Assembly (NCBI RefSeq): GCF_964204865.1
Contig: NC_135258.1
Span: 7,369,001-7,433,000, forward strand
Reading direction: 5' to 3'
DNA: 64,000 nucleotides
From: Styela clava
Taxonomy: Eukaryota > Chordata > Ascidiacea > Stolidobranchia > Styelidae
Both the position numbers and the translations under genes were made by a program. The notes under the pieces are model-generated. The model saw only the letters and a list, made by a program, of their open reading frames with translations. It did not search any database and was not told the origin of the DNA. Of the stretch, positions 29,370 through 50,937 are shown one piece after another (the stretch's first letter is position 1; each line of letters starts with the position of its first letter).

Positions 29370-29512
29370 AGCTTTGCGCAGTGGCAGTATCGTAACCAAT
29401 GAGGTTTATCCGAGGTGCGATTATTGCTAGTTGAAAACTATTACCAATACCCCGCCCTGGCGATACAAACGTGTCGCCTGTGGCAATTTCTGAAGGGTTG
29501 TACGCAACCTAT
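29370..29512 (+). ncRNA. U4: U4 snRNA gene, beta type
   Basis: Clean in the U6-pairing segments, K-turn and Sm site; 3' stem GGTTG-TACG-CAACC as at 15439. The upstream flank is block Z, as for the other beta copies. The downstream flank is not block X: after CCCGTTT the sequence switches at about 29520 to a different piece that ends in a hAT-like terminus. Confidence 0.96.
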
Positions 29513-29519
29513 CCCGTTT

Positions 29520-29731
29520 GGAAATGACTGATATTTGTGCAAAAACCAATGAAGAAATTTCGGCGTTCTAACCGGGTAATAAGTGGGCCAACAACAAACT
29601 TTCTCAACCTGCCAACCGAGCACATTGTTACATTACATCGAAATACGTTTGTGCGCAGTAAATCTATTCGTGTGCGCACCCTCTGAAAGCTGTGTGCGCG
29701 CGCACACGCGCACACCTTAGAGGGAACACTG
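29520..29731 (-). mobile_element. Truncated hAT-like element end
   Basis: The right boundary reads, on the minus strand, CAGTGTTCCCTCTAAGG, followed by a GTGCGCGTGTGCGCGCGC-type purine/pyrimidine alternation. This is a terminus I associate with widespread hAT miniature elements. The facing terminus is missing: the left side runs directly into the U4 3' flank at about 29520. The base order right of it (GTCATATC) is where block W begins. Confidence 0.6.
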
Positions 29732-30673
29732 GTCATATCTATGCTGTAGAAACCAGAGAGCAGTGCTCAAATATACCGACACTAAGGTTCGACCATCAGT
29801 TCCTGCATTTAAATACATCGAGTGTCTAACAAAGCAGCGAGTTTGAAGAAAGGTTGGATGACAAACAATACGGATGCGGACGAAAATTTTGAAGAAATAT
29901 CTGGTCCCGAAGGACATTGAGGAATAATAAAACTAACATCTTATTTCATCTTTAAGAATAGAGTATGTGTAATCGATTCGTGCATTACTTGTGAAAGAGC
30001 GATTTTACTCCACGACAAAAATCACTCCAACAACATGAAATTAGCAAACAAATATAAAGGCTCACTTCGTGTCCAACAACTCTTGTTAATACTTGATTTT
30101 ATATTCCTATCCGAAAATGGAAAATTATTTGGTTTATTTATATCATAATTCACAGTAATATCTTGACAGCGTCGTTAGCATCAAAAGAAGAAAAAAACTA
30201 GTTAGCGATCGGAGACAGCTGACTTATCGATCTGCGGTTTCGATTCCTTCGCTTTGACTCAATAGCGACACTGCGTGTCTCATCACTAATTAATTGATGA
30301 CTCGCTAATTATACAACATAATTCATCCAGGCTTCCGATCCGAGATATGGTGAATGCACATGAAAAATCCGGAGCAAATTCAACCTCGCTTTCGTGAGAT
30401 ATCGCGTGTATCTAAAGGACAAACAAACAAACAGACAAATACCTATCAACCTACTTAGCGATCAAGATCGATAGGTAACAAACAGACAAACAGACAAATA
30501 CCTATCAACATACTTACCGATCAAGATCGATAGGTAACAAACAGACAAACAGACAAATACCTATCAACATACTTACCGATCAAGATCGATAAGTAATTAC
30601 GGAAAAAAATATCAATTTGTACGTCTCCGTTTCATTTTACGTAAATATGTGGAAGTTAAGTGAGTTTTTGGAG
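29732..30673. repeat. Block W, copy 2
   Basis: Direct repeat of 6247-7276 with small indels. It contains a three-copy version of the palindrome-bearing minisatellite (30420-30597). It ends at the U4 promoter of the gene interrupted by the retrotransposons. Confidence 0.8.
30420..30597. repeat. Minisatellite with an internal palindrome, copy 2
   Basis: Three units of about 58 bp with ACAAATACCTATCAACATAC and CTTACCGATCAAGATCGATA. It has one unit fewer than 6975-7203. Confidence 0.85.
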
Positions 30674-30691
30674 TCACCACAAATGATAGAG
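30674..30691 (+). promoter_or_regulatory. PSE-like element of the interrupted U4
   Basis: TCACCACAAATGATAGAG at -59 to -42 from the U4 start at 30733. The box is intact, so the promoter should still fire. Its transcript would contain U4 nt 1-41 and then the retrotransposon in sense orientation. Confidence 0.8.
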
Positions 30692-30732
30692 TGCATTCAC
30701 ACTCCTATACGCAATTTTTTCTCTCCAGCAGT

Positions 30733-30773
30733 AGCTTTGCGCAGTGGCAGTATCGTAACCAATGAGGCTTATC
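30733..30773 (+). pseudogene. U4: U4 snRNA gene, 5' part (interrupted)
   Basis: U4 nt 1-41. U6 stem II and the start of the 5' stem-loop are intact; nt 36 is T to C within the last 17 bases. The gene is broken after nt 41 by three retrotransposons totalling 15.6 kb. The 3' part lies at 46355-46473. No U4 RNA can be made from this locus. Confidence 0.95.
30757..30773 (+). repeat. Target-site duplication 1
   Basis: AACCAATGAGGCTTATC, U4 nt 25-41. It is repeated at 35963, 41181 and 46355 (there with T instead of C at the twelfth base). The A pair at its left end merges with the poly(A) tails at the other junctions, so the length is 15-17 bp. One C at the right end is ambiguous. Confidence 0.92.
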
Positions 30774-30874
30774 GAGCTATCTGTTTGATTAAAATGAACA
30801 TCTGCTATTGTTATCATCAATTGGAATACTTTGGATTGTAAGATATTTTGGATATTCGTTCTTGGATACTAAAA

Positions 30875-32170
30875 ATGGATTACTCCGCAGCTCTTACAGG
30901 ATCAATAGGGATTACAGGTAATCGCCCTCGATCGGTTGTGGCAGAGGTGAGTGATTCTATTGATATAAACCGATTTCTCTACATCTTGGGAGAAAACCCT
31001 ATAACAAAAGGATATGTCGAACACCTGTCAGGAATTTTTGAAACTAGACCGAAAATTTGGTTGATATCTTTCAAACAGTTGAACCCAACAAATCCAAATG
31101 ATTCAGTTAGAGACAAATTTATTGTAGAAACGCAAAATGGCATTAAAGTCGATGGTGTAATAGTACGCTTTTTTCCACCCACAAAACCTCCAACAAGGAT
31201 TAGCATTCGCGATATCCCAGACGAATCACGACCACAAGTCGTTTTCGAAGCTCTGAATAAGGCTGGATGCGGAAAAATTAAAAGCATGACCAAACTATAC
31301 TACCGAAACACTCAACTATTCAACGGATATATAGCCGTATGGATAGATGATTTTAAACAGGAAAAACTGCCCCCCTTTCTTGTCATTGACAAAGCTAGGT
31401 GCAAAACCTACGTACCCACCGAGTTGTACAATCCAACATGCATGAACTGCCTTGATACTGGTCATAATGCAAGAAATTGCCGAAATAAAACGAAATGTAG
31501 GTCGTGCAAAAGTGAAGGTCACGTTCAGGCAAATTGCCCCCTAAAATCCAATGTGAGACCGAATAACATGGAATCCTGGTTTAAGGAATCGATATCCACA
31601 AAACCTGGAATAGAATCACATGTAGGAGAAAAAGAAGATGCAATACCAAACAATAACACCACACCAGAAATAGGAGTAAACCAAATTCCCGAGGCAGTGT
31701 TCCTAACTTCAAAATCCGACACAATATCTGATACGGATTTGTTATACGAAGAAGTAAAAGATTGGTCTCTATCAGAAGACAATACTATAACAACACCCAA
31801 AAAGCGCACTCCACCTCGCAAAACAGTCCCGAAGCCTAAATTAAAACCTACATCCACAATAGGGAACACTCCAATTAGACCCCCAGTAATTGGCAAATCG
31901 TATGTAAACATGGTAATTAACGACTTCGAGATTAGAGACAGCACGTCATCATCAGTATTCTCAGACATACTTCAAAGTAACTCGGCACCGGCATACCTAG
32001 AGAACCCAGATAGCACGTATGAAACAGACCCATCACAAACACCCAGACTTGAGCCTACTATGAACAAAACCCAAAAACAGATTGGCAAACGGGGAAGAAA
32101 AAATACTTCCTCGTCGACAACGTCGAATATATCACCATCGCCAAAAAAGGGGAAAGACAATAAAACATAG
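30875..32170 (+). CDS. Retrotransposon ORF1 protein (zinc-knuckle), intact
   Basis: 431 residues from ATG at 30875 (MDYSAALTGS); the frame is open slightly upstream but without another ATG. It is expected to coat the element RNA and act as a nucleic-acid chaperone in the retrotransposition RNP. Two CX2CX4HX4C knuckles sit at about residues 189-202 (CMNCLDTGHNARNC) and 208-221 (CRSCKSEGHVQANC). The 180 residues before them may fold as an RNA-binding domain but I cannot identify it by eye. The C-terminal 200 residues are Ser/Thr/Pro-rich and low in complexity and end in a Lys/Arg-rich stretch (GKRGRKN, SPKKGKDNK) that could be a nuclear signal or bind RNA. The stop at 32168 precedes ORF2 by 29 bases. 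Confidence 0.9.
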   Translation: MDYSAALTGSIGITGNRPRSVVAEVSDSIDINRFLYILGENPITKGYVEHLSGIFETRPKIWLISFKQLNPTNPNDSVRDKFIVETQNGIKVDGVIVRFFPPTKPPTRISIRDIPDESRPQVVFEALNKAGCGKIKSMTKLYYRNTQLFNGYIAVWIDDFKQEKLPPFLVIDKARCKTYVPTELYNPTCMNCLDTGHNARNCRNKTKCRSCKSEGHVQANCPLKSNVRPNNMESWFKESISTKPGIESHVGEKEDAIPNNNTTPEIGVNQIPEAVFLTSKSDTISDTDLLYEEVKDWSLSEDNTITTPKKRTPPRKTVPKPKLKPTSTIGNTPIRPPVIGKSYVNMVINDFEIRDSTSSSVFSDILQSNSAPAYLENPDSTYETDPSQTPRLEPTMNKTQKQIGKRGRKNTSSSTTSNISPSPKKGKDNKT

Positions 32171-32199
32171 AAAGTATAAAATAAAAATCATCCCAATAT

Positions 32200-35100
32200 A
32201 TGACTGAAAATCTATCACAATTAAAAATAATCTCACTGAACGTAAACGGACTGGAAAAAAATTGGAACAAACTTAAAATCTTCATAACTTATCACAACCC
32301 AGACATTATTGCTTTACAAGAAGTCCACAGAGTTAAAAGAGACGTTTCCGAGAACCGACTACATAACATGGGGTACAGATTATTTATTAACTCACTGACC
32401 TACTTCGATAAGAGGGATGACCAAAGATTCTTCCAAGGCACCGCCACTGCAGTAAGAGAAAACTTATGTGCAACGCACAGCTTTGAATATGTTACATTCA
32501 TACCTTGTAGAGCGTGTTCGACAACAATGACGAACTTACAAACCAAAGACAAGCTATCGCTAGTAAATGTTTATGCACCTCCCAGAAGAGGCGACAGAAA
32601 AACTAGAATGTTCTACGAAAAGCTGATAAACTTAGTGAGAGAGATCAAGCATATTCAAATAATTTGCGGTGACTTTAACATGGTTCATCAGAAAATAGAC
32701 GTCAGCAACCAAAACTCATTTACACTAGGGAACACAGAAATGCAATGGAAAGACTTTATACAAGCTCACAACTACATAGACACGTATAGATATCACTGGC
32801 CCGATAAAAGATTATATACAATTACCAGGAGAAGACAATCCCGACGAATAGATCGAATATATATTCCGTACAACATTAGTCATGAATTGAAAAATACAGA
32901 ATATTTAGTAAACACCGTTTCAGACCACCACTTTGCATCACACATCACTTTCAAAAATATTAAACAAGTTAACTGGGGACGGGGAACCTGGAAAAACAAT
33001 ACAGCTCATTTTAGGCATGAAAAAGTCAGGTTTTTGATAAATGAGATATACAAAAAAGAAGAACAAAGAAAACACGAATATGAAATACTTGCCGACTGGT
33101 GGGACAACTTGAAGACTAAAATTAAAAAAAGTCTCCTCCAACACGGAATTAATGAAGCAAAGGTAAAGAAACAAAATGAAAGCAGGTGGAAAAATGAAAT
33201 TCTAAATAGCATGAACAAGTCACCATCAAACCAAGCAATGTATATGCTTATTAAAAACCTAAAACAAATGGAAAAAGAAAAAGTGATGTTTAAACAAAAT
33301 ACAGCAAAAATCAAAGCATTAGAACAAAACGAAAGACCAACAAAATATTTCTTTGACAAATTGAAAACTAGAAGACGTAAAACCACTATAGACAGACTAC
33401 AAAACAAAGAAGGAAATTATTTAAAAACAAAAAACGAAATTTTGGAAGAAGCGCAAACATTCTATAAAACACTATGGACACAAACAACACCAGGTGAGGA
33501 AGATAGAATGGAAGAATACCTCAACATATATGGGGAAACTAAGCTTAGCACTGAAGAAAAGGAACAAATGGGGACCTTAGCTTCAAAAGAAGAACTTCTC
33601 GTGACTTTAAAACAAATGGATAACTATAAAACACCGGGACCAGACGGACTATCAAAGGAATTTTACGTTGAATTTTGGGAAATTTTGAAGAATGACTTGC
33701 ACCAGCTAGTAAACAATGCTATCGCTTTCGGCACCTTACCCACCAGTAGCAAAGAATCGATAGTCACCCTTATCTATAAAAAAGGAAATTCAAATCACCT
33801 ATCTAACTACCGGCCCATATCTAACCTAAATGTAGATTTTAAACTGATATCAAAAATATTAGCTAACCGATTGAAACCTATCTTGGATAAATATATAATG
33901 CCAACACAGAAAAGCGCAATTCCTAAACGATCTATATTTGATAATTTACGAAACGTTCAAGGAATATGGAATTATACAACAAAATGGAACCTACCTTTAT
34001 ATATAATCAGTTTCGATCAGGAAAAAGCTTTTGATATGGTTAACCAACGTTTTTTATTCAAAACCATGACCAAACTAAACTTCAACAAAAATATCATTAA
34101 CTTAATCAAAGAAATGTACAATCGGATATACAGCAGAATACAAATTAACGGAGCTAAAACCAATAAAATCTTTCTGACAAGAGGAATCAGACAAGGCTGT
34201 CCATTGAGCATGGCAATGTACACCTTAGCCGCTGACCCATTGGCAAGAAAAATCATCGCGAACCAAAAGATAAAAGGATTCAGCATCGGAAAATACAAAA
34301 CCGTAATTGATCAATTTGCAGACGACAATACAACATACGCGCGAGACATTGAATCGATAGAACACACCTTCAACGAATTTAAGACTTACGAATTAATAAC
34401 GGGACAAAAAATAAATGAGAAAAAAACTGAAATATTATGTACTAACCAAATCGCAATGCAAAAACTTAAAACCTCGCCGTACAACAAATTCATGAAACCA
34501 AATATAAAAGTTTTAGGCCAAATTATAGGACCCCAACAGACGGAAAAAACTTGGGATGAAATCCTCAAAAGACTTAGGAACACCCTGGAAGTTAATAAGC
34601 AGAGACAATTGACGTGGATAGGTAAATTCCAAATTTTAAATGCCTTGTGTATATCGCAGGTAATATACCACGCTAGAGTAGTGAATGTACCACCAATCTA
34701 CATACGGAAACTGAACACACTTTTCTTTGACTTCATCTGGCACCCAGAAAGCTTTCAGCTATTGGCACAAAATAAATTAACAGCCGATTACTACAATGGA
34801 GGATTAAATGCCCCATGCATAAAAACAAAAATACAGGCATGTCTTCTGGAAAAAATAAAAACATTGAAATCAATAACAGAACCTAAAGAGATATGGCACG
34901 CAATAGCCCTTTATGACATTGGCACGAAGATAAAGAGAATAAATCCCAAACTTTACACCAACCAGATGCCCCATGCCCTCGAAACCCCAAAGCACTGGAA
35001 AGATTGCATTCAGTTAACCGAAAAAATAGGCATAAAAGAAGAAAAATGGACAGACATTTCTTTCAAACAAATTTACCAGACGATCTTGAAATCAAACCAA

Positions 35101-35718
35101 TCGGGAAGAAGAAAACAGGTAGAAACACAAACATGCACCAATTGGAAAGAGATTCTATGTAAAGAAAAAGACATAAAAAATATAATAACAAACAAGGAAA
35201 GGGTGATATCATACAGGCTGGCGCACAATGCAATACTAAATGGAACACAAAGAAAAAGAATCAATTTATATCATACAGTAAGCGGGAAAATGGCTATCAC
35301 GGAGTGTAAATTCTGCTCGAAATCGGAGGACAACACGGAACACCTTATTAAAGAATGTCCTTTCACGTGGCGGATTTTGTATAAAATACAAAAATCTCTG
35401 AATCAGGCTCTGCAAACACATCACCCCTTTTTAAATGAACTACTTTGGCATAATATCTACTTAAAAGAAAACCGAAAAATAATATTAATAACAGTGAATA
35501 TAGTAAAAACTCAAATATACAAGGTCAAATCAATGAAGGACATGACAAACACAAAAATGAATCCCGAAGAAAGTAAAAGGATAGAAGATGGCATAGTTTC
35601 GAAAACTTTTAATGAAATGATCTGGAGAGTAAAAAACATAGAATCACTCAGCGAAGAAATAAAACAGATAGAGAAAATTGAATATTGGTTGGCCCAAAAA
35701 AGTGTTGCTACAAACTAA
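32200..35718 (+). CDS. Retrotransposon ORF2: endonuclease-reverse transcriptase, intact
   Basis: 1172 residues from ATG at 32200 (MTENLSQLK). The AP-type endonuclease occupies about residues 1-245: LNVNG near the start, LQE with the catalytic-type Glu41, GDFN at 157-160, RRIDRIY and SDHH at 241-244. A Lys-rich linker follows. The reverse transcriptase shows GPDGLSKEFY, RPISNLNVDFK, FDQEKAFD (motif A, Asp606), RGIRQGCPLS (motif B) and FADD (motif C, Asp708-Asp709). A C-terminal zinc motif CX2CX8HX4C is at 1036-1053. It should nick the U4 target and copy the RNA by target-primed reverse transcription. DQEKAFD and the overall plan fit the Tx1/L1 group. No frameshift or stop was found, unlike element 2. 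Confidence 0.95.
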   Translation: MTENLSQLKIISLNVNGLEKNWNKLKIFITYHNPDIIALQEVHRVKRDVSENRLHNMGYRLFINSLTYFDKRDDQRFFQGTATAVRENLCATHSFEYVTFIPCRACSTTMTNLQTKDKLSLVNVYAPPRRGDRKTRMFYEKLINLVREIKHIQIICGDFNMVHQKIDVSNQNSFTLGNTEMQWKDFIQAHNYIDTYRYHWPDKRLYTITRRRQSRRIDRIYIPYNISHELKNTEYLVNTVSDHHFASHITFKNIKQVNWGRGTWKNNTAHFRHEKVRFLINEIYKKEEQRKHEYEILADWWDNLKTKIKKSLLQHGINEAKVKKQNESRWKNEILNSMNKSPSNQAMYMLIKNLKQMEKEKVMFKQNTAKIKALEQNERPTKYFFDKLKTRRRKTTIDRLQNKEGNYLKTKNEILEEAQTFYKTLWTQTTPGEEDRMEEYLNIYGETKLSTEEKEQMGTLASKEELLVTLKQMDNYKTPGPDGLSKEFYVEFWEILKNDLHQLVNNAIAFGTLPTSSKESIVTLIYKKGNSNHLSNYRPISNLNVDFKLISKILANRLKPILDKYIMPTQKSAIPKRSIFDNLRNVQGIWNYTTKWNLPLYIISFDQEKAFDMVNQRFLFKTMTKLNFNKNIINLIKEMYNRIYSRIQINGAKTNKIFLTRGIRQGCPLSMAMYTLAADPLARKIIANQKIKGFSIGKYKTVIDQFADDNTTYARDIESIEHTFNEFKTYELITGQKINEKKTEILCTNQIAMQKLKTSPYNKFMKPNIKVLGQIIGPQQTEKTWDEILKRLRNTLEVNKQRQLTWIGKFQILNALCISQVIYHARVVNVPPIYIRKLNTLFFDFIWHPESFQLLAQNKLTADYYNGGLNAPCIKTKIQACLLEKIKTLKSITEPKEIWHAIALYDIGTKIKRINPKLYTNQMPHALETPKHWKDCIQLTEKIGIKEEKWTDISFKQIYQTILKSNQSGRRKQVETQTCTNWKEILCKEKDIKNIITNKERVISYRLAHNAILNGTQRKRINLYHTVSGKMAITECKFCSKSEDNTEHLIKECPFTWRILYKIQKSLNQALQTHHPFLNELLWHNIYLKENRKIILITVNIVKTQIYKVKSMKDMTNTKMNPEESKRIEDGIVSKTFNEMIWRVKNIESLSEEIKQIEKIEYWLAQKSVATN

Positions 35719-35812
35719 TTAAAAAAAAAATTATTAATTTACTGATTTTATGCTCAAAATTGAAAAACCATCTAAAACGGAAATGACGAAATAGGAGCCT
35801 ATCAATGAGAAC

Positions 35813-35832
35813 GGCAATAGTCATCTATTGCC
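35813..35832 (+). other. 3' UTR hairpin of element 1
   Basis: GGCAATAG-TCAT-CTATTGCC is a perfect 8-bp stem with a four-base loop about 100 bases downstream of the ORF2 stop. It is unchanged at 41025-41044 and 46209-46228. It may be an RNA signal for the reverse transcriptase; that is inference. Confidence 0.75.
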
Positions 35833-35929
35833 ATTATGTGATACGGTCTATAACTGACCAAGCTCCGAATGGGATACAGGAAATGACGGGTTATCCCCGA
35901 TCCCGTATATTATAATCTGATCCGAAAAG

Positions 35930-35962
<33 letters not shown>

Positions 35963-35966
<4 letters not shown>

Positions 35967-35979
35967 AATGAGGTTTATC
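35963..35979 (+). repeat. Target-site duplication 2
   Basis: AACCAATGAGGTTTATC between the A tail of element 1 and the first bases of element 2 (GAGCTAGCTG). Confidence 0.95.
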
Positions 35980-36080
35980 GAGCTAGCTGTTTGATTAAAA
36001 TGAACATCTGTTATTGTTATCATCAATTGGAATACTTTGGATTGTAACCTATTTTGGATATTCGTTCTTGGATACTAAAA

Positions 36081-37370
36081 ATGGATTACTCCGCAGCTCT
36101 TACAGGATCAATAGGGATTACAGGTAATCGCCCTCGATCGGTTGTGGCAGAGGTGAGTGATTCTATTGATATAAACCGATTTCTCAACATCTTGGGAGAA
36201 AACCCTATAACAAAAGGATATGTCGAACACCTGTCAGGAATTTTTGAAACTAGACCGAAAATTTGGTTGATATCTTTCAAACAGTTGAATCCAACAAATC
36301 CAAATGATTCAGTTAGAGACAAATTTATTGTAGAAACGCAAAATGGCATTAAAGTCGATGGTGTAATAGTACGCTTTTTTCCACCCACAAAACCTCCAAC
36401 AAGGATTAGCATTCGCGATATCCCAGACGAATCACGACCACAAGTCGTTTTCGAAGCTCTGAATAAGGCTGGATGCGGAAAAATTAAAAGCATGACCAAA
36501 CTATACTACCGAAACACTCAACTATTCAACGGATATATAGCCGTATGGATAGATGATTTTAAACAGGAAAAACTGCCCCCCTTTCTCGTCATTGACAAAG
36601 CTAGGTGCAAAACCTACGTACCCACCGAGTTGTACAATCCAACATGCATGAACTGCCTTGATACTGGTCATAATGCAAGAAATTGCCGAAATAAAACGAA
36701 ATGTAGGTCGTGCAAAAGTGAAGGTCACGTTCAGGCAAATTGCCCCCTAAAATCCAATGTGAGACCGAATAACATGGAATCCTGGTTTAAGGAATCGATA
36801 TCCACAAAACCTGGAATAGTATCAGATGTAGGAGAAAAAGAAGATGCAATACCAAACAATAACACCACACCAGAAATAGGAGTAAACCAAATTCCAGAGG
36901 CAGTGTTCCCAACTTCAAAATCCGACACAATATCTGATACGGATTTGTTATACGAAGAAGTGAAAGATTGGTCTCTATCAGAAGACAATACTATAACAAC
37001 ACCCAAAAAGCGCACTCCACCTCGCAAAACAGTACCGAAGCCTAAATTAAAACCTACATCCACAATAGGGAACACTCCAATTAGACCCCCAGTAATTGGC
37101 AAATCGTATGTAAACATGGTAATTAACGACTTCGAGATTAGAGACAGCACGTCATCATCAGTATTCTCAGACATACTTCAAAGTAACTCGGCACCGGCAT
37201 ACCTAGAGAACCCAGATAGCACGTATGAAACAGACCCATCACAAACACCCAGACTTGAACCTACTATGAACAAAACCGAAAAACAGATTGGAAAACGGGG
37301 AAGAGAAAATACTTCCTCGTCGACAACGTCGAATATATCACCCTCGCCAAAAAAAGGGGAAAGACAATAA
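36081..37370 (+). CDS. Retrotransposon ORF1, element 2 (altered C-terminus)
   Basis: 429 residues from ATG at 36081. Both zinc knuckles are present as in element 1. Near the end one additional A in the run after CTCGCC shifts the frame, so the protein ends KKGERQ rather than KKGKDNKT. The change touches only the basic tail and may be tolerated. Other differences are a handful of substitutions (for example Glu-Ser-His to Val-Ser-Asp around residue 250). Confidence 0.85.
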   Translation: MDYSAALTGSIGITGNRPRSVVAEVSDSIDINRFLNILGENPITKGYVEHLSGIFETRPKIWLISFKQLNPTNPNDSVRDKFIVETQNGIKVDGVIVRFFPPTKPPTRISIRDIPDESRPQVVFEALNKAGCGKIKSMTKLYYRNTQLFNGYIAVWIDDFKQEKLPPFLVIDKARCKTYVPTELYNPTCMNCLDTGHNARNCRNKTKCRSCKSEGHVQANCPLKSNVRPNNMESWFKESISTKPGIVSDVGEKEDAIPNNNTTPEIGVNQIPEAVFPTSKSDTISDTDLLYEEVKDWSLSEDNTITTPKKRTPPRKTVPKPKLKPTSTIGNTPIRPPVIGKSYVNMVINDFEIRDSTSSSVFSDILQSNSAPAYLENPDSTYETDPSQTPRLEPTMNKTEKQIGKRGRENTSSSTTSNISPSPKKGERQ

Positions 37371-37414
37371 AACATAGAAAGTATAAAATAAAAATCATCT
37401 ACAAGACCCAATAT

Positions 37415-40400
37415 ATGACTGAAAATCTATCACAATTAAAAATAATCTCACTGAACGTAAACGGACTGGAAAAAAATTGGAATAAACTTAAAATCTTCAT
37501 AACTTATCACAACCCAGACATTATTGCTTTACAAGAAGTCCACAGAGTTAAAAGAGACGTTTCCGAGAACCGACTTCAAAACATGGGGTACAGATTATTT
37601 ATTAACTCACTGACCGACTTCGATAAGAGGGATGACCAAAGATTCTTCCAAGGCACCGCCACTGCAGTAAGAGAAAACTTATGTGCAACGCACAGCTTTG
37701 AATATGTTACATTCATACCTTGTAGAGCGTGTTCGACAACAATGACGAACTTACAAACCAAAGACAAGCTATCGCTAGTAAATGTTTATGCACCTCCCAG
37801 AAGAGGCGACAGAAAAACTAGAATGTTCTACGAAAAGCTGATAAACTTAGTGAGAGAGATCAAGCATATTCAAATAATTTGCGGTGACTTTAACATGGTT
37901 CATCAGAAAGTAGACGTCAGCAACCAAAACTCATTTACACTAGGGAACACAGAAATGCAATGGAAAGACTTTATACAAGCTTACAACTACATAGACACGT
38001 ATAGATATCACTGGCCCGATAAAAGATTATATACAATTACCAGGAGAAGACAATCCCGACGAATAGATCGAATATATATTCCGTACAACATTAGTCATGA
38101 ATTGAAAAATACAGAATATTTAGTAAACACCGTTTCAGACCACCACTTTGCATCACACATCACTTTCAAAAATATTAAACAAGTTAACTGGGGACGGGGA
38201 ACCTGGAAAAACAATACAGCTCATTTTAGGCATGAAAAAGTCAAGTTTTTGATAAATGAGATATACAAAAAAGAAGAACAAAGAAAACACGAATATGAAA
38301 TACTTGCCGACTGGTGGGAGAACTTGAAGACTAAAATTAAAAAAAGCCTCCTCCAACACGGAATTAACGAAGCAAAGGTAAAGAAACAAAATGAAAGCAG
38401 GTGGAAAAATGAAATTCTAAATAGCATGAACAAGTCACCATCAAACCAAGCAATGTATATGTTTATTAAAAACCTAAAACAAATGGAAAAAGAAAAAGTG
38501 ATGTTTAAACAAAATACAGCAAAAATCAAAGCATTAGAACAAAACGAAAGACCAACAAAATATTTCTTTGACAAATTGAAAACTAGAAGACGTAAAACCA
38601 CTATAGACAGACTACAAAACAAAGAAGAAATTATTTAAAAACAAAAAACGAAATTTTGGAAGAAGCGCAAACATTCTATAAAACACTATGGACACAAACA
38701 ACACCAGGTGAGGAAGATAGAATGGAAGAATACCTCAACATATATGGGGAAACTAAGCTTAGCACTGAAGAAAAGGAACAAATGGGGACCTTAGCTTCAA
38801 AAGAAGAACTTCTCGTGACTTTAAAACAAATGAATAACTATAAAACACCGGGACCAGACGGACTATCAAAGGAATTTTACGTTGAATTTTGGGAAATTTT
38901 GAAGAATGACTTGCACCAGCTAGTAAACAATGCTATCGCTTTCGGCACCTTACCCACCAGTAGCAAAGAATCGATAGTCACCCTTATCTATAAAAAAGGA
39001 AATTCAAATCACCTATCTAACTACCGGCCCATATCTAACCTAAATGTAGATTTTAAACTGATATCAAAAATATTAGCTAACCGATTGAAACCTATCTTGG
39101 ATAAATATATAATGCCAACACAGAAAAGCGCAATTCCTAAACGATCTATATTTGATAATTTACGAAACGTTCAAGGAATATGGAATTATACAACAAAATG
39201 GAACCTACCTTTATATATAATCAGTTTCGATCAGGAAAAAGCTTTTGATATGGTTAACCAACGTTTTTTATTCAAAACCATGACCAAACTAAACTTCAAC
39301 AAAAATATCATTAACTTAATCAAAGAAATGTACAATCGGATATACAGCAGAATACAAATTAACGGAGCTAAAACCAATAAAATCTTTCTGACAAGAGGAA
39401 TCAGACAAGGCTGTCCATTGAGCATGGCAATGTACACCTTAGCCGCTGACCCATTGGCAAGAAAAATCATCGCGAACCAAAAGATAAAAGGATTCAGAAT
39501 CGGAAAATACAAAACCGTAATTGATCAATTTGCAGACGACAATACAACATACGCGCGAGACATTGAATCGATAGAACACACCTTCAACGAATTTAAGACT
39601 TACGAATTAATAACGGGACAAAAAATAAATGAGAAAAAAACTGAAATATTATGTACTAACCAAATCGCAATGCAAAAACTTAAAACCTCGCCGTACAACA
39701 AATTCATGAAACCAAATATAAAAGTTTTAGGCCAAATTATAGGACCCCAACAGACGGAAAAAACTTGGGATGAAATCCTCAAAAGACTTAGGAACACCCT
39801 GGAAGTTAATAAGCAGAGACAATTGGCGTGGATAGGTAAATTCCAAATTTTAAATGCCTTGTGTATATCGCAGGTAATATACCACGCTAGAGTAGTGAAT
39901 GTACCACCAATCTACATACGGAAACTGAACACACTTTTCTTTGACTTCATCTGGCACCCAGAAAGCTTTCAGCTATTGGCACAAAATAAATTAACAGCCG
40001 ATTACTACAATGGAGGATTAAATGCCCCATGCATAAAAACAAAAATACAGGCATGTCTTCTGGAAAAAATAAAAACATTGAAAGCAATAACAGAACCTAA
40101 AGAGATATGGCACGCAATAGCCCTTTATGACATTGGCACGAAGATAAAGAGAATAAATCCCAAACTTTACACCAACCAGATGCCCCATGCCCTCGAAACC
40201 CCAAAGCACTGGAAAGACTGCATTCAGTTAACCGAAAAAAGAGGCATAAAAGAAGAAAAATGGACAGACATTTCTTTCAAACAAATTTACCAGACGATCT
40301 TGAAATCAAACCAATCGGGAAGAAGAAAACAGGTAGAAACACAAACATGCACCAATTGGAAAGAGATTCTAAGTAAAGAAAAAGACATAAAAAATATAAT

Positions 40401-40932
40401 AACAAACAAGGAAAGGGTGATATCATACAGGCTGGCGCACAATGCAATACTAAATGGAACACAAAGAAAAAGAATCAATTTATATCATACAGTAAGCGGG
40501 AAAATGGCTATCACGGAGTGTAAATTCTGCTCGAAATCGGAGGACAACACGGAACACCTTATTAAAGAATGTCCTTTCACGTGGCGGATTTTGTATAAAA
40601 TACAAAAATCTCTGAATCAGGCTCTGCAAACACATCACCCCTTCTTAAATGAACTACTTTGGCATAATATCTACTTAAAAGAAAACCGAAAAATAATATT
40701 AATAACAGTGAATATAGTAAAAACTCAAATATACAAGTTCAAATCAATGAAGGACATGACAAACACAAAAATGAATCCCGAAGAAAGTAAAAGGATAGAA
40801 GATGGCATAGTTTCGAAAACTTTTAATAAAATGGGCTGGAGAGTAAAAAACATAGAATCACTCAGCGAAGAAATAAAACAGATAGAGAAAATTGAAAATT
40901 GGTTGGCCCAAAAAAGTGTTGCTACAAACTAA
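37415..40932 (+). pseudogene. Retrotransposon ORF2, element 2, frameshifted
   Basis: It opens at ATG 37415 like element 1 and encodes the complete AP endonuclease. At about 38627 (AAAGAAGAAATT versus AAAGAAGGAAATT) one G is missing and the frame ends at 38638, after 407 residues. The reverse transcriptase, including FDQEKAFD, RGIRQGCPLS and FADD, continues in the next frame from about 38656 to the stop at 40932. A protein from this copy would have endonuclease but no polymerase. Confidence 0.92.
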
Positions 40933-41136
40933 TTAAAAAAAATGATTAATTTACTGATTTTATGCTCAAAATTGAAAAACCATCTAAAACGGAAATGACG
41001 AAATAGGAGCCTATCAATGAGAACGGCAATAGTCATCTATTGCCATTATGTGATACGGTCTATAACTGACCAAGCTCCGAATGGGATACAGGAAATGACG
41101 GTTTATCCCCGATCCCGTATATTATAATCTGATCCG

Positions 41137-41180
<44 letters not shown>

Positions 41181-41184
<4 letters not shown>

Positions 41185-41197
41185 AATGAGGTTTATC
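41181..41197 (+). repeat. Target-site duplication 3
   Basis: AACCAATGAGGTTTATC between the A tail of element 2 and element 3 (which starts GAACTAGCTG). Confidence 0.95.
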
Positions 41198-41298
41198 GAA
41201 CTAGCTGTTTGATTAAAATGAACATCTGCTATTGTTATCTTCAATTGGAATACTTTGGATTGTAAGCTATTTTGGATATTCGTTCTTGGATACTAAAA

Positions 41299-42560
41299 AT
41301 GGATTACTCCGCAGCTCTTACAGGATCAATAGGGATTACAGGTAATCGCCCTCGATCGGTTGTGGCAGAGGTGAGTGATTCTATTGATATAAACCGATTT
41401 CTCTACATCTTGGGAGAAAACCCTATAACAAAAGGATATGTCGAACACCTGTCAGGAATTTTTGAAACTAGACCGAAAATTTGGTTGATATCTTTCAAAC
41501 AGGTGAATCCAACAAATCCAAATGATTCAGTTAGAGACAAATTTATTGTAGAAACGCAAAATGGCATTAAAGTCGATGGTGTAATAGTACGCTTTTTTCC
41601 AATATCCCAGACGAATCACGACCACAAGTCGTTTTCGAAGCTCTGAATAAGGCTGGATGCGGAAAAATTAAAAGCATGACCAAACTATACTACCGAAACA
41701 CTCAACTATTCAACGGATATATAGCCGTATGGATAGATGATTTTAAACAGGAAAAACTGCCCCCCTTTCTCGTCATTGACAAAGCTAGGTGCAAAACCTA
41801 CGTACCCACCGAGTTGTACAATCCAACATGCATGAACTGCCTTGATACTGGTCATAATGCAAGAAATTGCCGAAATAAAACGAAATGTAGGTCGTGCAAA
41901 AGTGAAGGTCACGTTCAGGCAAATTGCCCCCTAAAATCCAATGTGAGACCGAATAACATGGAATCCTGGTTTAAGGAATCGATATCCACAAAACCTGGAA
42001 TAGTATCAGATGTAGGAGAAAAAGAAGATGCAATACCAAACAATAACACCACACCAGAAATAGGAGTAAACCAAATTCCAGAGGCAGTGTTCCCAACTTC
42101 AAAATCCGACACAATATCTGATACGGATTTGTTATACGAAGAAGTGAAAGATTGGTCTCTATCAGAAGACAATACTATAACAACACCCAAAAAGCGCACT
42201 CCACCTCGCAAAACAGTACCGAAGCCTAAATTAAAACCTACATCCACAATAGGGAACACTCCAATTAGACCCCCAGTAATTGGCAAATCGTATGTAAACA
42301 TGGTAATTAACGACTTCGAGATTAGAGACAGCACGTCATCATCAGTATTCTCAGACATACTTCAAAGTAACTCGGCACCGGCATACCTAGAGAACCCAGA
42401 TAGCACGTATGAAACAGACCCATCACAAACACCCAGACTTGAACCTACTATGAACAAAACCGAAAAACAGATTGGAAAACGGGGAAGAGAAAATACTTCC
42501 TCGTCGACAACGTCGAATATATCACCCTCGCCAAAAAAGGGGAAAGACAATAAAACATAG
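41299..42560 (+). pseudogene. Retrotransposon ORF1, element 3, deleted
   Basis: It starts at ATG 41299. After TTTTTTCCA (about 41600) 34 bases present in elements 1 and 2 are missing (they encode PTKPPTRISIR), so the frame ends at 41646. The remaining two thirds, with both zinc knuckles and the basic tail, is open in the original frame from 41676 (MTKLYYRN) to 42560. A truncated N-terminal protein or an internal restart are possible but a full ORF1 protein is not. Confidence 0.92.
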
Positions 42561-42597
42561 AAAGTATAAAATAAAAATCATCTACAAGACCCAATAT

Positions 42598-45500
42598 ATG
42601 ACTGAAAATCTATCACAATTAAAAATAATCTCACTGAACGTAAACGGACTGGAAAAAAATTGGAATAAACTTAAAATCTTCATAACTTATCACAACCCAG
42701 ACATTATTGCTTTACAAGAAGTCCACAGAGTTAAAAGAGACGTTTCCGAGAACCGACTTCAAAACATGGGGTACAGATTATTTATTAACTCACTGACCGA
42801 CTTCGATAAGAGGGATGACCAAAGATTCTTCCAAGGCACCGCCACTGCAGTAAGAGAAAACTTATGTGCAACGCACAGCTTTGAATATGTTACATTCATA
42901 CCTTGTAGAGCGTGTTCGACAACAATGACGAACTCACAAACCAAAGACAAGCTATCGCTAGTAAATGTTTATGCACCTCCCAGAAGAGGCGACAGAAAAA
43001 CTAGAATGTTCTACGAAAAGCTGATAAACTTAGTGAGAGAGATCAAGAATATTCAAATAATTTGCGGTGACTTTAACATGGTTCATCAGAAAATAGACGT
43101 CAGCAACCAAAACTCATTTACACTAGGGAACACAGAAATGCAATGGAAAGACTTTATACAAGCTTACAACTACATAGACACGTATAGATATCACTGGCCC
43201 GATAAAAGATCATATACAATTACCAGGAGAAGACAATCCCGACGAATAGATCGAATATATATTCCGTACAACATTAGTCATGAATTGAAAAATACAGAAT
43301 ATTTAGTAAACACCGTTTCAGACCACCACTTTGCATCACACATCACTTTCAAAAATATTAAACAAGTTAACTGGGGACGGGGAACCTGGAAAAACAATAC
43401 AGCTCATTTTAGGCATGAAAAAGTCAAGTTTTTGATAAATGAGATATACAAAAAAGAAGAACAAAGAAAACACGAATATGAAATACTTGCCGACTGGTGG
43501 GACAACTTGAAGACTAAAATTAAAAAAAGCCTCCTCCAACACGGAATTAACGAAGCAAAGGTAAAGAAACAAAATGAAAGCAGGTGGAAAAATGAAATTC
43601 TAAATAGCATGAACAAGTCACCATCAAACCAAGCAATGTATATGCTTATTAAAAACCTAAAACAAATGGAAAAAGAAAAAGTGATGTTTAAACAAAATAC
43701 AGCAAAAATCAAAGCATTAGAACAAAACGAAATACCAACAAAATATTTCTTTGACAAATTGAAAACTAGAAGACGTAAAACCACTATAGACAGTCTACAA
43801 AACAAAGAAGGAAATTATTTAAAAACAAAAAACGAAATTTTGGAAGAAGCGCAAACATTCTATAAAACACTATGGACACAAACAACACCAGGTGAGGAAG
43901 ATAGAATGGAAGAATACCTCAACATATATGGGGAAACTAAGCTTAGCACTGAAGAAAAGGAACAAATGGGGACCTTAGCTTCAAAAGAAGAACTTCTCGT
44001 GACTTTAAAACAAATGGATAACTATAAAACACCGGGACCAGACGGACTATTAAAGGAATTTTACGTTGAATTTTGGGAAATTTTGAAGAATGACTTGCAC
44101 CAGCTAGTAAACAATGCTATCGCTTTCGGCACCTTACCCACCAGTAGCAAAGAATCGATAGTCACCCTTATCTATAAAAAAGGAAATTCAAATCACCTAT
44201 CTAACTACCGGCCCATATCTAACCTAAATGTAGATTTTAAACTGATATCAAAAATATTAGCTAACCGATTGAAACCTATCTTGGATAAATATATAATGCC
44301 AACACAGAAAAGCGCAATTCCTAAACGATCTATATTTGATAATTTACGAAACGTTCAAGGAATATGGAATTATACAACAAAATGGAACCTACCTTTATAT
44401 ATAATCAGTTTCGATCAGGAAAAAGCTTTCGATATGGTTAACCAACGTTTTTTATTCAAAACCATGACCAAACTAAACTTCAACAAAAATATCATTAACT
44501 TAATCAAAGAAATGTACAATCGGATATACAGCAGAATACAAATTAACGGAGCTAAAACCAATAAAATCTTTCTGACAAGAGGAATCAGACAAGGCTGTCC
44601 ATTGAGCATGGCAATGTACACCTTAGCCGCTGACCCATTGGCAAGAAAAATCATCGCGAACCAAAAGATAAAAGGATTCAGCATCGGAAAATACAAAACC
44701 GTAATTGATCAATTTGCAGACGACAATACAACATACGCGCGAGACATTGAATCGATAGAACACACCTTCAACGAATTTAAGACTTACGAATTAATAACGG
44801 GACAAAAAATAAATGAGAAAAAAACTGAAATATTATGTACTAACCAAATCGCAATGCAAAAACTTAAAACCTCGCCGTACAACAAATTCATGAAACCAAA
44901 TATAAAAGTTTTAGGCCAAATTATAGGACCCCAACAGACGGAAAAAACTTGGGATGAAATCCTCAAAAGACTTAGGAACACCCTGGAAGTTAATAAGCAG
45001 AGACAATTGACGTGGATAGGTAAATTCCAAATTTTAAATGCCTTGTGTATATCGCAGGTAATATACCACGCTAGAGTAGTGAATGTACCACCAATCTACA
45101 TACGGAAACTGAACACACTTTTCTTTGACTTCATCTGGCACCCAGAAAGCTTTCAGCTATTGGCACAAAATAAATTAACAGCCGATTACTACAATGGAGG
45201 ATTAAATGCCCCATGCATAAAAACAAAAATACAGGCATGTCTTCTGGAAAAAATAAAAACATTGAAATCAATAACAGAACCTAAAGAGATATGGCACGCA
45301 ATAGCCCTTTATGACATTGGCACGAAGATAAAGAGAATAAATCCCAAACTTTACACCAACCAGATGCCCCATGCCCTCGAAACCCCAAAGCACTGGAAAG
45401 ATTGCATTCAGTTAACCGAAAAAATAGGCATAAAAGAAGAAAAATGGACAGACATTTCTTTCAAACAAATTTACCAGACGATCTTGAAATCAAACCAATC

Positions 45501-46116
45501 GGGAAGAAGAAAACAGGTAGAAACACAAACATGCACCAATTGGAAAGAGATTCTAAGTAAAGAAAAAGACATAAAAAATATAATAACAAACAAGGAAAGG
45601 GTGATATCATACAGGCTGGCGCACAATGCAATACTAAATGGAACACAGAGAAAAAGAATCAATTTATATCATACAGTAAGCGGGAAAATGGCTATCACGG
45701 AGTGTAAATTCTGCTCGAAATCGGAGGACAACACGGAACACCTTATTAAAGAATGTCCTTTCACGTGGCGGATTTTGTATAAAATACAAAAATCTCTGAA
45801 TCAGGCTCTACAAACACATCACCCCTTTTTAAATGAACTACTTTGGCATAATATCTACTTAAAAGAAAATCGAAAAATAATATTAATAACAGTGAATATA
45901 GTAAAAACTCAAATATACAAGGTCAAATCAATGAAGGACATGACAAACGCAAAAATGAATCCCGAAGAAAGTAAAAGGATAGAAGATGGCATAGTTTCGA
46001 AAACTTTTAATAAAATGGGCTGGAGAGTAAAAAACATAGAATCACTCAGCGAAGAAATAAAACAGATAGAGAAAATTGAAAATTGGTTGGCCCAAAAAAG
46101 TGTTGCTACAAACTAA
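42598..46116 (+). CDS. Retrotransposon ORF2, element 3, intact
   Basis: 1172 residues from ATG at 42598, chosen because MTENLSQLK aligns with the starts in the other two copies. The frame is also open for 42 codons upstream, overlapping ORF1. All endonuclease (LQE, GDFN, SDHH) and reverse transcriptase motifs (FDQEKAFD, RGIRQGCPLS, FADD) and the C-terminal CCHC motif are present. By eye it differs from element 1 ORF2 at about 14-16 residues, among them Ser to Leu in GPDGLSKEF and Arg to Ile in NERPTK. It could provide ORF2 activity in trans. Confidence 0.93.
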   Translation: MTENLSQLKIISLNVNGLEKNWNKLKIFITYHNPDIIALQEVHRVKRDVSENRLQNMGYRLFINSLTDFDKRDDQRFFQGTATAVRENLCATHSFEYVTFIPCRACSTTMTNSQTKDKLSLVNVYAPPRRGDRKTRMFYEKLINLVREIKNIQIICGDFNMVHQKIDVSNQNSFTLGNTEMQWKDFIQAYNYIDTYRYHWPDKRSYTITRRRQSRRIDRIYIPYNISHELKNTEYLVNTVSDHHFASHITFKNIKQVNWGRGTWKNNTAHFRHEKVKFLINEIYKKEEQRKHEYEILADWWDNLKTKIKKSLLQHGINEAKVKKQNESRWKNEILNSMNKSPSNQAMYMLIKNLKQMEKEKVMFKQNTAKIKALEQNEIPTKYFFDKLKTRRRKTTIDSLQNKEGNYLKTKNEILEEAQTFYKTLWTQTTPGEEDRMEEYLNIYGETKLSTEEKEQMGTLASKEELLVTLKQMDNYKTPGPDGLLKEFYVEFWEILKNDLHQLVNNAIAFGTLPTSSKESIVTLIYKKGNSNHLSNYRPISNLNVDFKLISKILANRLKPILDKYIMPTQKSAIPKRSIFDNLRNVQGIWNYTTKWNLPLYIISFDQEKAFDMVNQRFLFKTMTKLNFNKNIINLIKEMYNRIYSRIQINGAKTNKIFLTRGIRQGCPLSMAMYTLAADPLARKIIANQKIKGFSIGKYKTVIDQFADDNTTYARDIESIEHTFNEFKTYELITGQKINEKKTEILCTNQIAMQKLKTSPYNKFMKPNIKVLGQIIGPQQTEKTWDEILKRLRNTLEVNKQRQLTWIGKFQILNALCISQVIYHARVVNVPPIYIRKLNTLFFDFIWHPESFQLLAQNKLTADYYNGGLNAPCIKTKIQACLLEKIKTLKSITEPKEIWHAIALYDIGTKIKRINPKLYTNQMPHALETPKHWKDCIQLTEKIGIKEEKWTDISFKQIYQTILKSNQSGRRKQVETQTCTNWKEILSKEKDIKNIITNKERVISYRLAHNAILNGTQRKRINLYHTVSGKMAITECKFCSKSEDNTEHLIKECPFTWRILYKIQKSLNQALQTHHPFLNELLWHNIYLKENRKIILITVNIVKTQIYKVKSMKDMTNAKMNPEESKRIEDGIVSKTFNKMGWRVKNIESLSEEIKQIEKIENWLAQKSVATN

Positions 46117-46354
46117 TTAAAAAAAATGATTAATTTACTGATTTTATGCTCAAAATTGAAAAACCATCTAAAACGGAAATGACGAAATAGGAGCCTATCA
46201 ATGAGAACGGCAATAGTCATCTATTGCCATTATGTGATACGGTCTATAACTGACCAAGCTCCGAATGGGATACAGGAAATGACGGTTTATCCCCGATCCC
46301 GTATATTATAATCTGATCCGGAAATAAAAAAAAATAAAAAAATAAAAAAAAAAA

Positions 46355-46371
46355 AACCAATGAGGTTTATC
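46355..46371 (+). repeat. Target-site duplication 4
   Basis: AACCAATGAGGTTTATC; the right-most copy, continuous with U4 nt 42 onward. Confidence 0.95.
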
Positions 46372-46473
46372 CGAGGTGCGATTATTGCTAGTTGAAAACT
46401 ATTACCAATACCCCGCCCTGGCGATACAAACGTGTCGCCTGTGTCAATTTCTGAAGGGTTGTACGCAACCTAT
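46355..46473 (+). pseudogene. U4: U4 snRNA gene, 3' part (interrupted)
   Basis: U4 nt 25-143, with U6 stem I, central CCAATACCCCGCCC, Sm site AATTTCTG (with nt 114 G to T just before it) and the beta-type 3' stem GGTTG-TACG-CAACC. It has no promoter of its own. The beta type and the block X flank match the genes at 15439 and 60968, not the W-flanked gene at 7336. Confidence 0.95.
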
Positions 46474-47278
46474 CCTGTTTACAACTGTTGATCTTCCCCA
46501 TTATTAACGACACACAGACAGCGTATATTGGTAAGTTATTTGTGTTATGCTATGCCTCTCTCTTGTGATACGATCGCGTCGTGGAGGCAATTTTCTGAAG
46601 GGCTATATGAGATTCGTCTTACTACAAAAAAAGCGTTAATGATTCTGAGATTCCACGTTAGTAGGGATCTTTTGTAGTAATCCCTCTTCACTTATGCACA
46701 AAATGTGAGATTTCAGAAAAACATCCCCGACATGTTATAAGTAGGGCTGGGCATTTCCAATCGAATATTCGAATCGAATCGAATAGTAAATTATTCGAAT
46801 CGGTTCAAAGCTAAATTTCGAATCGCCGCCATCTTGTTTTTTTGTTTCCGCCAATGGTCGGAACAATTTCAATTGAAGGCCATTGACGTGGTCAATGTAT
46901 ATGTTTGTGTGCATATATTTCATCTTTGTTCTTTGTTATGGACACTCTCAAACGATAATTATAATTGTCCAGTGAAAATATTCTCACATCGCATCCAAAT
47001 AATTTGCAATTGAGATTAACCTTTATTTTCTACTGCATGGAATAGGAAACGTTGAAGCGATCGCTGATTTTAGTAAGTGTTGCTATATTTTAGCCCCATC
47101 TTTTCGGAAATTAAATTAATATCCCTGATATCTTTATAATTAATGTTGGATACTCATACGGAGATATGTGGTTTGATAATCCACTCATAGACGTACAAAG
47201 CAAATGTTTATAGCTGTTAACTCTCCCAATACTGCTCTGAAACTTTTGTACTTTGAAATATATATGTATATATATATA

Positions 47279-47930
47279 TCGCCGGATGAGAACAGAACAG
47301 GCCTAAGTCACAATTTTGAGTTTTGAGAAAAACGCAAAAAACAATTTGGAATTTTTTTATTTTCCAATTTCTAGATATTCACACTTAGTAAAGTCCTGAG
47401 CTCTGGTTATTCTAATGTGGATGAGAATATCTTTGTAATCGATATTTTTTGGCACTTCAGCTTCAATTCCTTCCTGCTTTTTTACCCCCATAAGAAACTT
47501 TGGCCCATTCTGTTCTCAACAACTTCTGAAATTTTTTGTATGGGATGCAAGGTAAAACAAGGTGACTTAGGCCTAAGTTGCACTGAACAAATTTTTAGGG
47601 ATGTAAGTTTTGGACATTTCATTTCTGATGTTCATGCCCATCATATTGGAACTTAGGACTATCTTTTTTCAATATTTTGGGGTTTTGAGCCATGCTTTAC
47701 AAGGTGGTGGTCTTGAAATCCTGAATTTCTCAATAATAAAAATTTTAGCTGGACTTAGGCCCATTCTGTTCTTAAATATTTTAGGCCTAAGTCCAGCTAA
47801 AATTTTTATTATTGAGAAATTCAGGATTTCAAGACCACCACCTTGTAGAGCATGGCTTAAAACCCCAAAATATTGAAAAAAGTCAATTTTCCAAAAATGT
47901 GACTTAGACCCTTCTGTTCTCATCCGGCGA
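47279..47930. mobile_element. Nested-palindrome TIR element
   Basis: The ends are TCGCCGGATGAGAACAGAA and its complement TTCTGTTCTCATCCGGCGA, inserted in a TA microsatellite. The matching site in the other X copy (16365-16386) is empty. The inner part is a second palindrome with arms of about 100 bp (47663-47762 and 47784-47883) around a loop of about 21 bases. The motif GGCCCATTCTGTTCT or GGCCTAAGTC recurs in both orientations at about 47290, 47510, 47560, 47756 and 47784. There is no transposase, and open frames on both strands give nearly the same peptide because of the palindrome. Confidence 0.88.
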
Positions 47931-49911: not shown

Positions 49912-50937
49912 TCATCCGAGAATAGTAGTATTACGATAAGAATGACTGTGAGGCCGATCTGAGATTGTAGCTTGAACTAATGTCACGTGATGAGCAAAGG
50001 GAAACAGCCTAAGTTTCCATTCATCGAAGGAAGCTATGACACAGATAGTAACAACTAGGATCACGAATTTCAATATAAGTGAATCAAAAATTATCAGGTG
50101 AAAGTACGAATTGTATATAAAAGAAATTAAAGAACCAATCATCATTGCAAAGATCGTTATTGCTGTAGCAATCGAAGACCGTTTAATTTGTTTTAATAAT
50201 CTCCTGGAATGTGCATTATGATTTTTTCTAAATTTCCATAAAGGATAAACAAAAAGAAAAAGTAGAGAAAATTGGAAAATTGCCATAACTATATACATAG
50301 ACGCTATTTGCAACAGCAATATGGGGACCGGATATTTCTTTTCACGTGTGCAGCCAATTAAGGAATTGCTATATTCGCCGCGAATAGTCATTATGAGTAA
50401 ACCCGTAAGCAAACAAATGCTCATAAAAGCTAAGACTAGCCAACTCAATGTTTGCATACATTTGTTGCATAGTGGCTTCAGTAAATCTGACCTGTAAAAT
50501 TGTCTTTGACGCATCCAGTAAATCAGATACGGTATTAAGAGACAAATAGTGATCAAAGTATGCTTCACATATCGCAGGTTTCTGCATAATTCCGCTTCAT
50601 CGTCATAAGAATAACGTAATTCAAGAAAATCAAGACATCCGAGTACAACGAACAATAATAGAAACGTAATGATCAAATATCTCATAACGTCTCTAGCTAC
50701 ATGTTTTTTCATTCTTGAATATCGATTCTGCTGACGAATTCGGTCCATGATTTCCTTGTTTTCCCTTTGTACTTTCCATTCATAAATCAAAGTTACGACC
50801 AAGACATAGATGTTTAATAAAATTGTGAAAGACGAAAAAATCACAGCCGCCAGCCATTGTCTGTATACTTTGTTTTTGCTGTAGAATGAATCGGTATCAT
50901 TGACCGAAACATTTTGGCTTATTTGTAGAAACCACAT
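49912..50937 (-). CDS. Seven-transmembrane receptor-like protein, intact
   Basis: 341 residues, single exon; the start is ATG at 50937 (MWFLQISQNVSV), the only in-frame Met at the N-terminal end. Seven hydrophobic helices at about residues 30-52, 87-107, 123-141, 164-185, 205-233, 256-274 and 280-302. The N-terminus has NVS and NDT glycosylation sequons, which fits an outside N-terminus. Cys118 before helix 3 and Cys196 between helices 4 and 5 are placed like the conserved disulfide of class A GPCRs. There is no DRY or NPxxY motif, and the first intracellular loop is long and charged (about 34 residues). I do not recognise the family: orphan GPCR-like is the best description. Ligand unknown. 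It is the only intact one of three copies in the window. Confidence 0.75.
   Translation of the reverse strand: MWFLQISQNVSVNDTDSFYSKNKVYRQWLAAVIFSSFTILLNIYVLVVTLIYEWKVQRENKEIMDRIRQQNRYSRMKKHVARDVMRYLIITFLLLFVVLGCLDFLELRYSYDDEAELCRNLRYVKHTLITICLLIPYLIYWMRQRQFYRSDLLKPLCNKCMQTLSWLVLAFMSICLLTGLLIMTIRGEYSNSLIGCTREKKYPVPILLLQIASMYIVMAIFQFSLLFLFVYPLWKFRKNHNAHSRRLLKQIKRSSIATAITIFAMMIGSLISFIYNSYFHLIIFDSLILKFVILVVTICVIASFDEWKLRLFPFAHHVTLVQATISDRPHSHSYRNTTILG

Follow-up and report, generated by a model that had tools for sequence, protein, structure and literature searches.

Why should three retrotransposons lie end to end inside one small nuclear RNA (snRNA) gene, each joined to it at the same base? 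The question is raised by a 64,000-nucleotide (nt) stretch of the ascidian Styela clava genome (contig NC_135258.1, positions 7,369,001 to 7,433,000; hereafter the window), and the answer that we consider quite probable, judging from sequence, is that a non-long-terminal-repeat (non-LTR) element uses U4 snRNA genes as both landing site and promoter. The host U4 gene, on the forward strand like everything inserted in it, runs from nt 1 to nt 41 (30733–30773, with one substitution, C at nt 36, by direct comparison with the 12 full-length U4 genes of the window), is interrupted there, and continues from nt 25 to its end (46355–46469, Rfam 74.7 bits); between the halves stand three sense-oriented, poly(A)-ended elements of ~5.2 kb each. 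The 17-bp U4 piece AACCAATGAGGTTTATC (nt 25–41), whose leading AA is indistinguishable from poly(A), begins at 30757 with one mismatch (GGCTT), recurs between copies 1 and 2 (35963–35979) and between copies 2 and 3 (41181–41197), and opens the second U4 half at 46355. With up to three mismatches it occurs 16 times in the window versus 0.39 expected in shuffles, the remaining 12 occurrences falling within the 12 full-length U4 genes. An earlier sequence-only reading had described three two-open-reading-frame (ORF), poly(A)-tailed elements in sense at one U4 site, with U4 nt 25–41 at all four junctions and a single C in the first, and direct sequence together with Rfam bears this out.

Structurally, copy 1 (30774–35962, including poly(A)) retains both ORFs open, ORF1 of 431 amino acids (aa; 30875–32170) and ORF2 of 1172 aa (32200–35718), with copy 2 (35980–41180) having an open ORF1 (36081–37370) and an ORF2 frameshifted by a 1-nt deletion (37415–38638 and 38722–40932), and copy 3 (41198–46354) having an ORF1 shortened by a 34-nt deletion but an intact ORF2 frame of 1172 aa (42598–46116). 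The ORF2 protein matches Exo_endo_phos (E 5.8e-13) and RVT_1 (E 7.2e-31) in Pfam, and its closest solved protein is human L1 ORF2p (aligned residues 1–881 of 1172, E 9e-71), as against 2.9e-25 at best for R2, which makes the reverse transcriptase one of L1 rather than R2 type. Thus the AP (apurinic/apyrimidinic)-type endonuclease and L1-like reverse transcriptase read earlier from the letters both stand, whereas of the two CCHC zinc knuckles claimed for ORF1 one is a Pfam zf-CCHC match barely above its cut-off (21.5 versus 20.8 bits) and the second is seen only by eye. ORF2 also contains the motifs FADD, SDHH and a C-terminal CX2CX8HX4C, which we take to have their customary meanings (FADD for the reverse transcriptase, CX2CX8HX4C for a knuckle). 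Together, the sequences support a two-ORF, poly(A)-tailed, AP endonuclease (APE)-type non-LTR retrotransposon of L1 type. Evolutionarily, members of the Tx1 clade have two ORFs with CCHC knuckles, and the features that make the element a candidate member are the AP-type endonuclease and reverse transcriptase in ORF2, the L1-type reverse transcriptase, two ORFs with CCHC and a sequence-specific target. Scans of viral contigs and genome contigs gave no relatives. The fold of the 3′ untranslated region (UTR) is weak (z −2.16) and was not used as evidence.

Is the U4 gene a preferred site, or merely where one copy happened to land? Searches of the window's own 376.6-Mb genome, in which the window lies on contig C10, by protein, by 3′ UTR and by 5′ end agree on at least eight near-identical copies: three in the window, two on C4 and three single ones, at C3:19.86 Mb, C9:16.76 Mb and C10:16.89 Mb. 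The protein search scored the best 39 of 2518 candidates and the 3′-UTR and 5′-end DNA searches scored all of theirs (16/16 and 10/10), and the counts are lower bounds. Five of the eight young copies (the window trio and the C4 pair, which lies in another U4 array) reside in U4 at the same site, all in sense, with the 5′ end joined at U4 nt 41 and the poly(A) abutting U4 nt 25–28; tandem copies 2 and 3 are preceded only by nt 25–41 after the prior poly(A). Three further U4 genes bear insertions at the same place: the gene at C10:8.883 Mb holds, behind a poly(A) remnant, an older copy whose 5′ end is 90% identical to the U4 family, the one at C4:20.1525 Mb a short 5′-truncated remnant ending in GTGGAAAAAACTCTGATCCGT followed by A-rich sequence, resembling related families such as that of locus L009, and the one at C4:20.1532 Mb an A-rich remnant flanked by two partial target copies. 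At least six U4 genes therefore carry an insertion at one place, in a genome with at least 46 U4 genes that fit the Rfam model over their full length (42 among the matches listed plus four window genes absent from that list); the one-by-one analysis covered loci other than the 30 U4 loci L031–L060. The 3′-UTR search also returned eight weaker fragments (74–91% identity), with no U4 recognised by eye in the flanks of the six that were read (the other two are at C8:12.81 Mb and C10:22.06 Mb), and the tenth match of the 5′-end search, at C8:7.91 Mb, is weak (75% over 83 bases). From these sequences U4 targeting is well supported, and the specificity proposed from the trio alone survives in a relaxed form: it extends to most young copies and to three more U4 genes, and it is not absolute, with three of the eight elsewhere.

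The same array could also have been filled without any target specificity, by one chance insertion into U4 that then spread through unequal crossing over and gene conversion across U4 arrays, an account that we regard as very unlikely. U4 arrays do recombine: two U4 types are joined in the gene that harbours the trio (window 29509–30732 and 46470–47279), its upstream kilobase being 84% like the gene at 7336 and its downstream 810 bases 96% like the gene at 15439. Moreover, a 3′ junction without one C is common to both C4 copies and a C4 remnant, and window copies 2 and 3 form the closest pair (0.55%, four shared sites). However, U4-resident copies are about as divergent from each other as from those outside U4, their poly(A) tails differ, and also present at that site are an older copy and a remnant whose 3′ end is different. 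Pairwise divergence is 0.55–1.46% and nearly star-like, the clearest shared signals being ten sites uniting window copy 1 with the C9 copy and the four uniting copies 2 and 3 (the C10:16.89 Mb copy entered this alignment only from element position ~1022, its 5′ end being read apart), and a star-like pattern with so few shared sites does not fit a recent spread of a single insertion. Since the window copies differ mutually by 0.55–0.86%, they are not one recently duplicated unit, and copy 1 is closer to the C9 copy (0.74%) than to its neighbour copy 2 (0.85%); a recent tandem duplication of one copy was considered and is ruled out by the divergence pattern.

The three copies outside U4 genes, which we call strays, bear on where the element RNA begins. 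Each starts with U4 fused to the element, from nt 2 to 41 at C3, nt 3 to 41 at C9 and nt 3 to 41 with one mismatch at C10:16.89 Mb; in all three, U4 nt 41 adjoins element nt 1 exactly as in the U4-resident copies, and all end in poly(A). Two of them have new target-site duplications (GATTAATTAGGGTT with three extra bases at C3, AACTTATTCTT at C9). Rfam finds the U4 piece of the C3 and C9 strays only below its cut-off and gives no U4 match for the C10:16.89 Mb stray or the C10:8.88 Mb copy, weak or absent signals that fit a U4 piece of only 40 nt. The flanks of the genomic copies, once tabulated, place most young copies inside U4 (5/8), as the sequence-only reading would have it, and the strays outside U4 carry a U4 leader, which that reading had no means of seeing. 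Since a full-length retrotransposed copy preserves the start of the RNA from which it was made, transcription of the element most likely began no more than two bases from the U4 start site, if not exactly there, and most likely depends on the U4 promoter. As a side observation, the C10 stray (locus L008) and a 50%-identical relative (L010) have a similar 3′ flank, seemingly both inserted in the same repeat.

Two other origins of the leader deserve weighing. Fusion of U4 to the element by template switching or RNA ligation, rather than by read-through, has precedents, as snRNA chimeras with long interspersed elements (LINEs) occur in mammals, U6-L1 among them, but template switching would be expected at variable points, including the 3′ part of U4, whereas the strays share without exception the very junction of the resident copies; we find this origin highly improbable. 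It is also unlikely that the leader is a fixed 5′ UTR with an internal promoter of its own, residence in U4 being a side effect of leader annealing. That U4 sequence (at least nt 25–41) precedes the element in all eight young copies, on or off target, would suit such a UTR, but annealing alone would not explain the 3′ junction at nt 25–28 or the truncated, leader-less remnants found there, which require cutting at U4, and the stray leaders have stayed close to U4 (a single mismatch at C10, full agreement at C3 and C9), as if renewed from U4 genes.

Dependence on the U4 promoter has a further correlate upstream of the genes. Every one of the window's 13 U4 promoters has the motif CACCACAAATG, with at most one mismatch, at −53 to −59, that of the split gene included (at −58; 30675–30685, forward strand). 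At −58 of the three other element-bearing U4 genes scored the motif has no mismatch (C10:8.88 Mb) or two (both C4 genes), and it was found within 120 nt of none of the three strays, where the best matches have 5, 4 and 4 mismatches against a background mode of 4. From its position we infer that the motif is the proximal sequence element (PSE) of snRNA genes, with a putative promoter role.

Functionally, we posit that RNA polymerase II would start at U4 +1 and read through into the element, yielding a U4(1–41)::element messenger RNA, whose ORF2 protein would nick another U4 gene on its bottom strand near nt 24/25 (5′-CATTGGTT/ACGATAC-3′, the slash marking the nick). The TT end at the nick could then prime on the element's poly(A), and the complementary DNA end copied from the U4 leader could anneal to the 5′ half of the target U4 gene, which would leave seamless 5′ junctions and let new copies re-enter the same site in tandem. 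The 17-bp U4 piece may accordingly be templated in part by the leader and need not be a pure target-site duplication. A copy missing U4 would have no promoter and should be silent, so that selection would retain the element in U4. At the C9 stray, the likely nick site resembles that of U4 (TACCGT/AACT versus TATCGT/AACC, 8 of 10 letters, background P 0.00025), as does a longer stretch (11 of 20, P 0.004), both comparisons having been chosen post hoc.

Several observations weigh against this use of U4 as site and promoter. Targeting is leaky, with three of eight young copies outside U4 genes, and the C3 stray site is not clearly U4-like (4 or 2 of 10 letters by nick placement; best 8 of 15, P 0.024). 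A target-site duplication was looked for at the C10:16.89 Mb stray and none was recognisable. Upstream of the C9 stray, at about −35, stands TACCACAATG, a motif-like sequence if one base is skipped (the motif scan was ungapped), and we have taken it as chance. At the resident sites, ~20 additional bases separate U4 from element in the old copy at C10:8.883 Mb (read on its 5′ side), and three of the four C4 3′ junctions begin at nt 28, one nt later than those of the window. Finally, the recombinant host gene attests recombination within U4 arrays, and some of the tandem structure may derive from it.

Does the association with small RNA genes extend to relatives in the same genome? One group (L013) has a U2 leader on five of the six 5′ ends found, which begins at +1 in three copies and at +3 or +4 in the others and stops near nt 40, one copy being a few bases short, with the sixth 5′ end truncated; no copy of the group lies inside any of the U2 genes listed (at least 46). 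Another family (L012) bears U2 sequence with ~80 nt upstream of the U2 part. Related families with the U2 snRNA 5′ end as leader are represented at loci L074, L075, L079 and L084–L086. On C8, at 4.24–4.61 Mb (L017–L027, L069–L071, L078), two related families, 35–38% identical in ORF2, occupy the exon/intron boundary (5′ splice site) of an array resembling spliced-leader (SL) RNA genes, in which the intact exon/intron junction occurs 66 times in a single orientation. The first, with seven C8 copies among the loci, has the SL intron as 3′ flank in the six whose 3′ flank was seen (L018–L023) and the SL exon before the element in all three 5′ flanks read (L017–L019), and its stray on C19 (L014) carries the SL exon; the second has the SL intron as 3′ flank in three C8 copies (L024, L026, L027), and no SL leader was found in the single 5′ stretch read (L071). 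In one of these two families the element terminates in sequence similar to the SL intron itself (GTAAGTATCGTTGGGTTGAGGCCCAAATT). The array's SL exon matches 24 of the 25 letters of the 'Chordata 1' consensus in an excerpt of PMC3795323, and the Ciona SL, as given in an excerpt of PMC7986045, differs from it.

Evolutionarily, a tree of ORF2 built from 15 of the 25 frames kept (five of 30 loci, L004, L006, L007, L008 and L011, had been excluded earlier for broken or split frames) places L009 as sister of the U4 family with support of 88/89, which is below the mark for firm support and comes with long-branch warnings. L009 has an SL-like leader and lies directly upstream of a histone H3 start codon (L009:5513–5902; Pfam Histone, H3 by eye). 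A second element (L072) stands in tandem upstream of it. We entertain as possible, at somewhat less than an even chance, that one L1-type lineage has split into families riding the leader and promoter of different multicopy genes for small capped RNAs: U4 (1–41), U2 (~1–40) and the SL exon. If so, the choice of target would be a choice of promoter, integration would be completed with the aid of the snRNA leader in the RNA, and a stray inserted downstream of another small-RNA promoter would found a new family.

The window as a whole contains an array of U4 genes, with 13 Rfam U4 matches (RF00015), 12 full-length and one to the 3′ half of the split gene (46331–46469). The nearest full-length gene is at 29370–29508 on the forward strand; the others start at 4579, 5451 (reverse), 7336, 8249, 15439, 22428, 23358, 53868, 54772, 60968 and 62168 (reverse). 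Repeated ORFs between the U4 genes resemble multi-pass membrane proteins (1252–1926, and 18464–19264 and 49912–50937 on the reverse strand), and the two tested (1252–1926 and 49912–50937) had no Pfam hit at E 0.01.

Site-specific retrotransposons would gain a new target in U4. Its target stretch is the 5′ stem-loop, which is nearly the same in human U4, and given this near-identity it may be usable as an insertion site. The strays, moreover, display in sequence what is usually only assumed, namely an element RNA that seems to start where the snRNA itself starts, and they make testable a long-standing question, what keeps such elements at a gene of low copy number, to which the suggested answer is the need for its promoter. 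No U4-specific family was found in the open-licence literature searched, Repbase and Dfam being outside that search. The elements of snRNA genes reported as of 2015 were only Keno and Utopia (U2), Dada-U1 and Dada-U6 (PMC4640811, excerpt), and 'U4 snRNA' does not occur in a 2022 paper on Dada (PMC8869645). One article that contains both 'non-LTR retrotransposon' and 'U4 snRNA' (PMC4133162) proved unrelated.

How, then, does the U4 family compare with known systems? Human L1, which supplied the closest solved protein, is not gene-specific and has its own promoter, unlike what we propose here. Keno, of the Tx1 group, is likewise an APE-type non-LTR element at a fixed site of an snRNA gene (PMC4640811, excerpt), but it targets U2 whereas the window family targets U4 nt 25–41. 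Utopia shares the snRNA-gene target and is occasionally tandem in one species, and differs in combining a restriction-like endonuclease with U2 (same excerpt), where the window family combines an APE-type endonuclease with U4. Similar in its leader is the melanogaster-type R1 of 28S ribosomal RNA (rRNA) genes, whose off-target copies bear a leader of the target gene that has been read as a read-through transcript, annealing explaining the precise 5′ junctions (PMC2718515, excerpt); there, however, the gene is one for rRNA and the 28S tag is 6–27 nt, whereas the leader of the window family starts at or next to the snRNA +1. Dada-U1 and Dada-U6 are also inserted in snRNA genes, Dada-U1 in tandem as well (PMC3706591, excerpt), but these are DNA transposons with a DDE transposase and 6–7 bp duplications, whereas the window family has a reverse transcriptase and poly(A).

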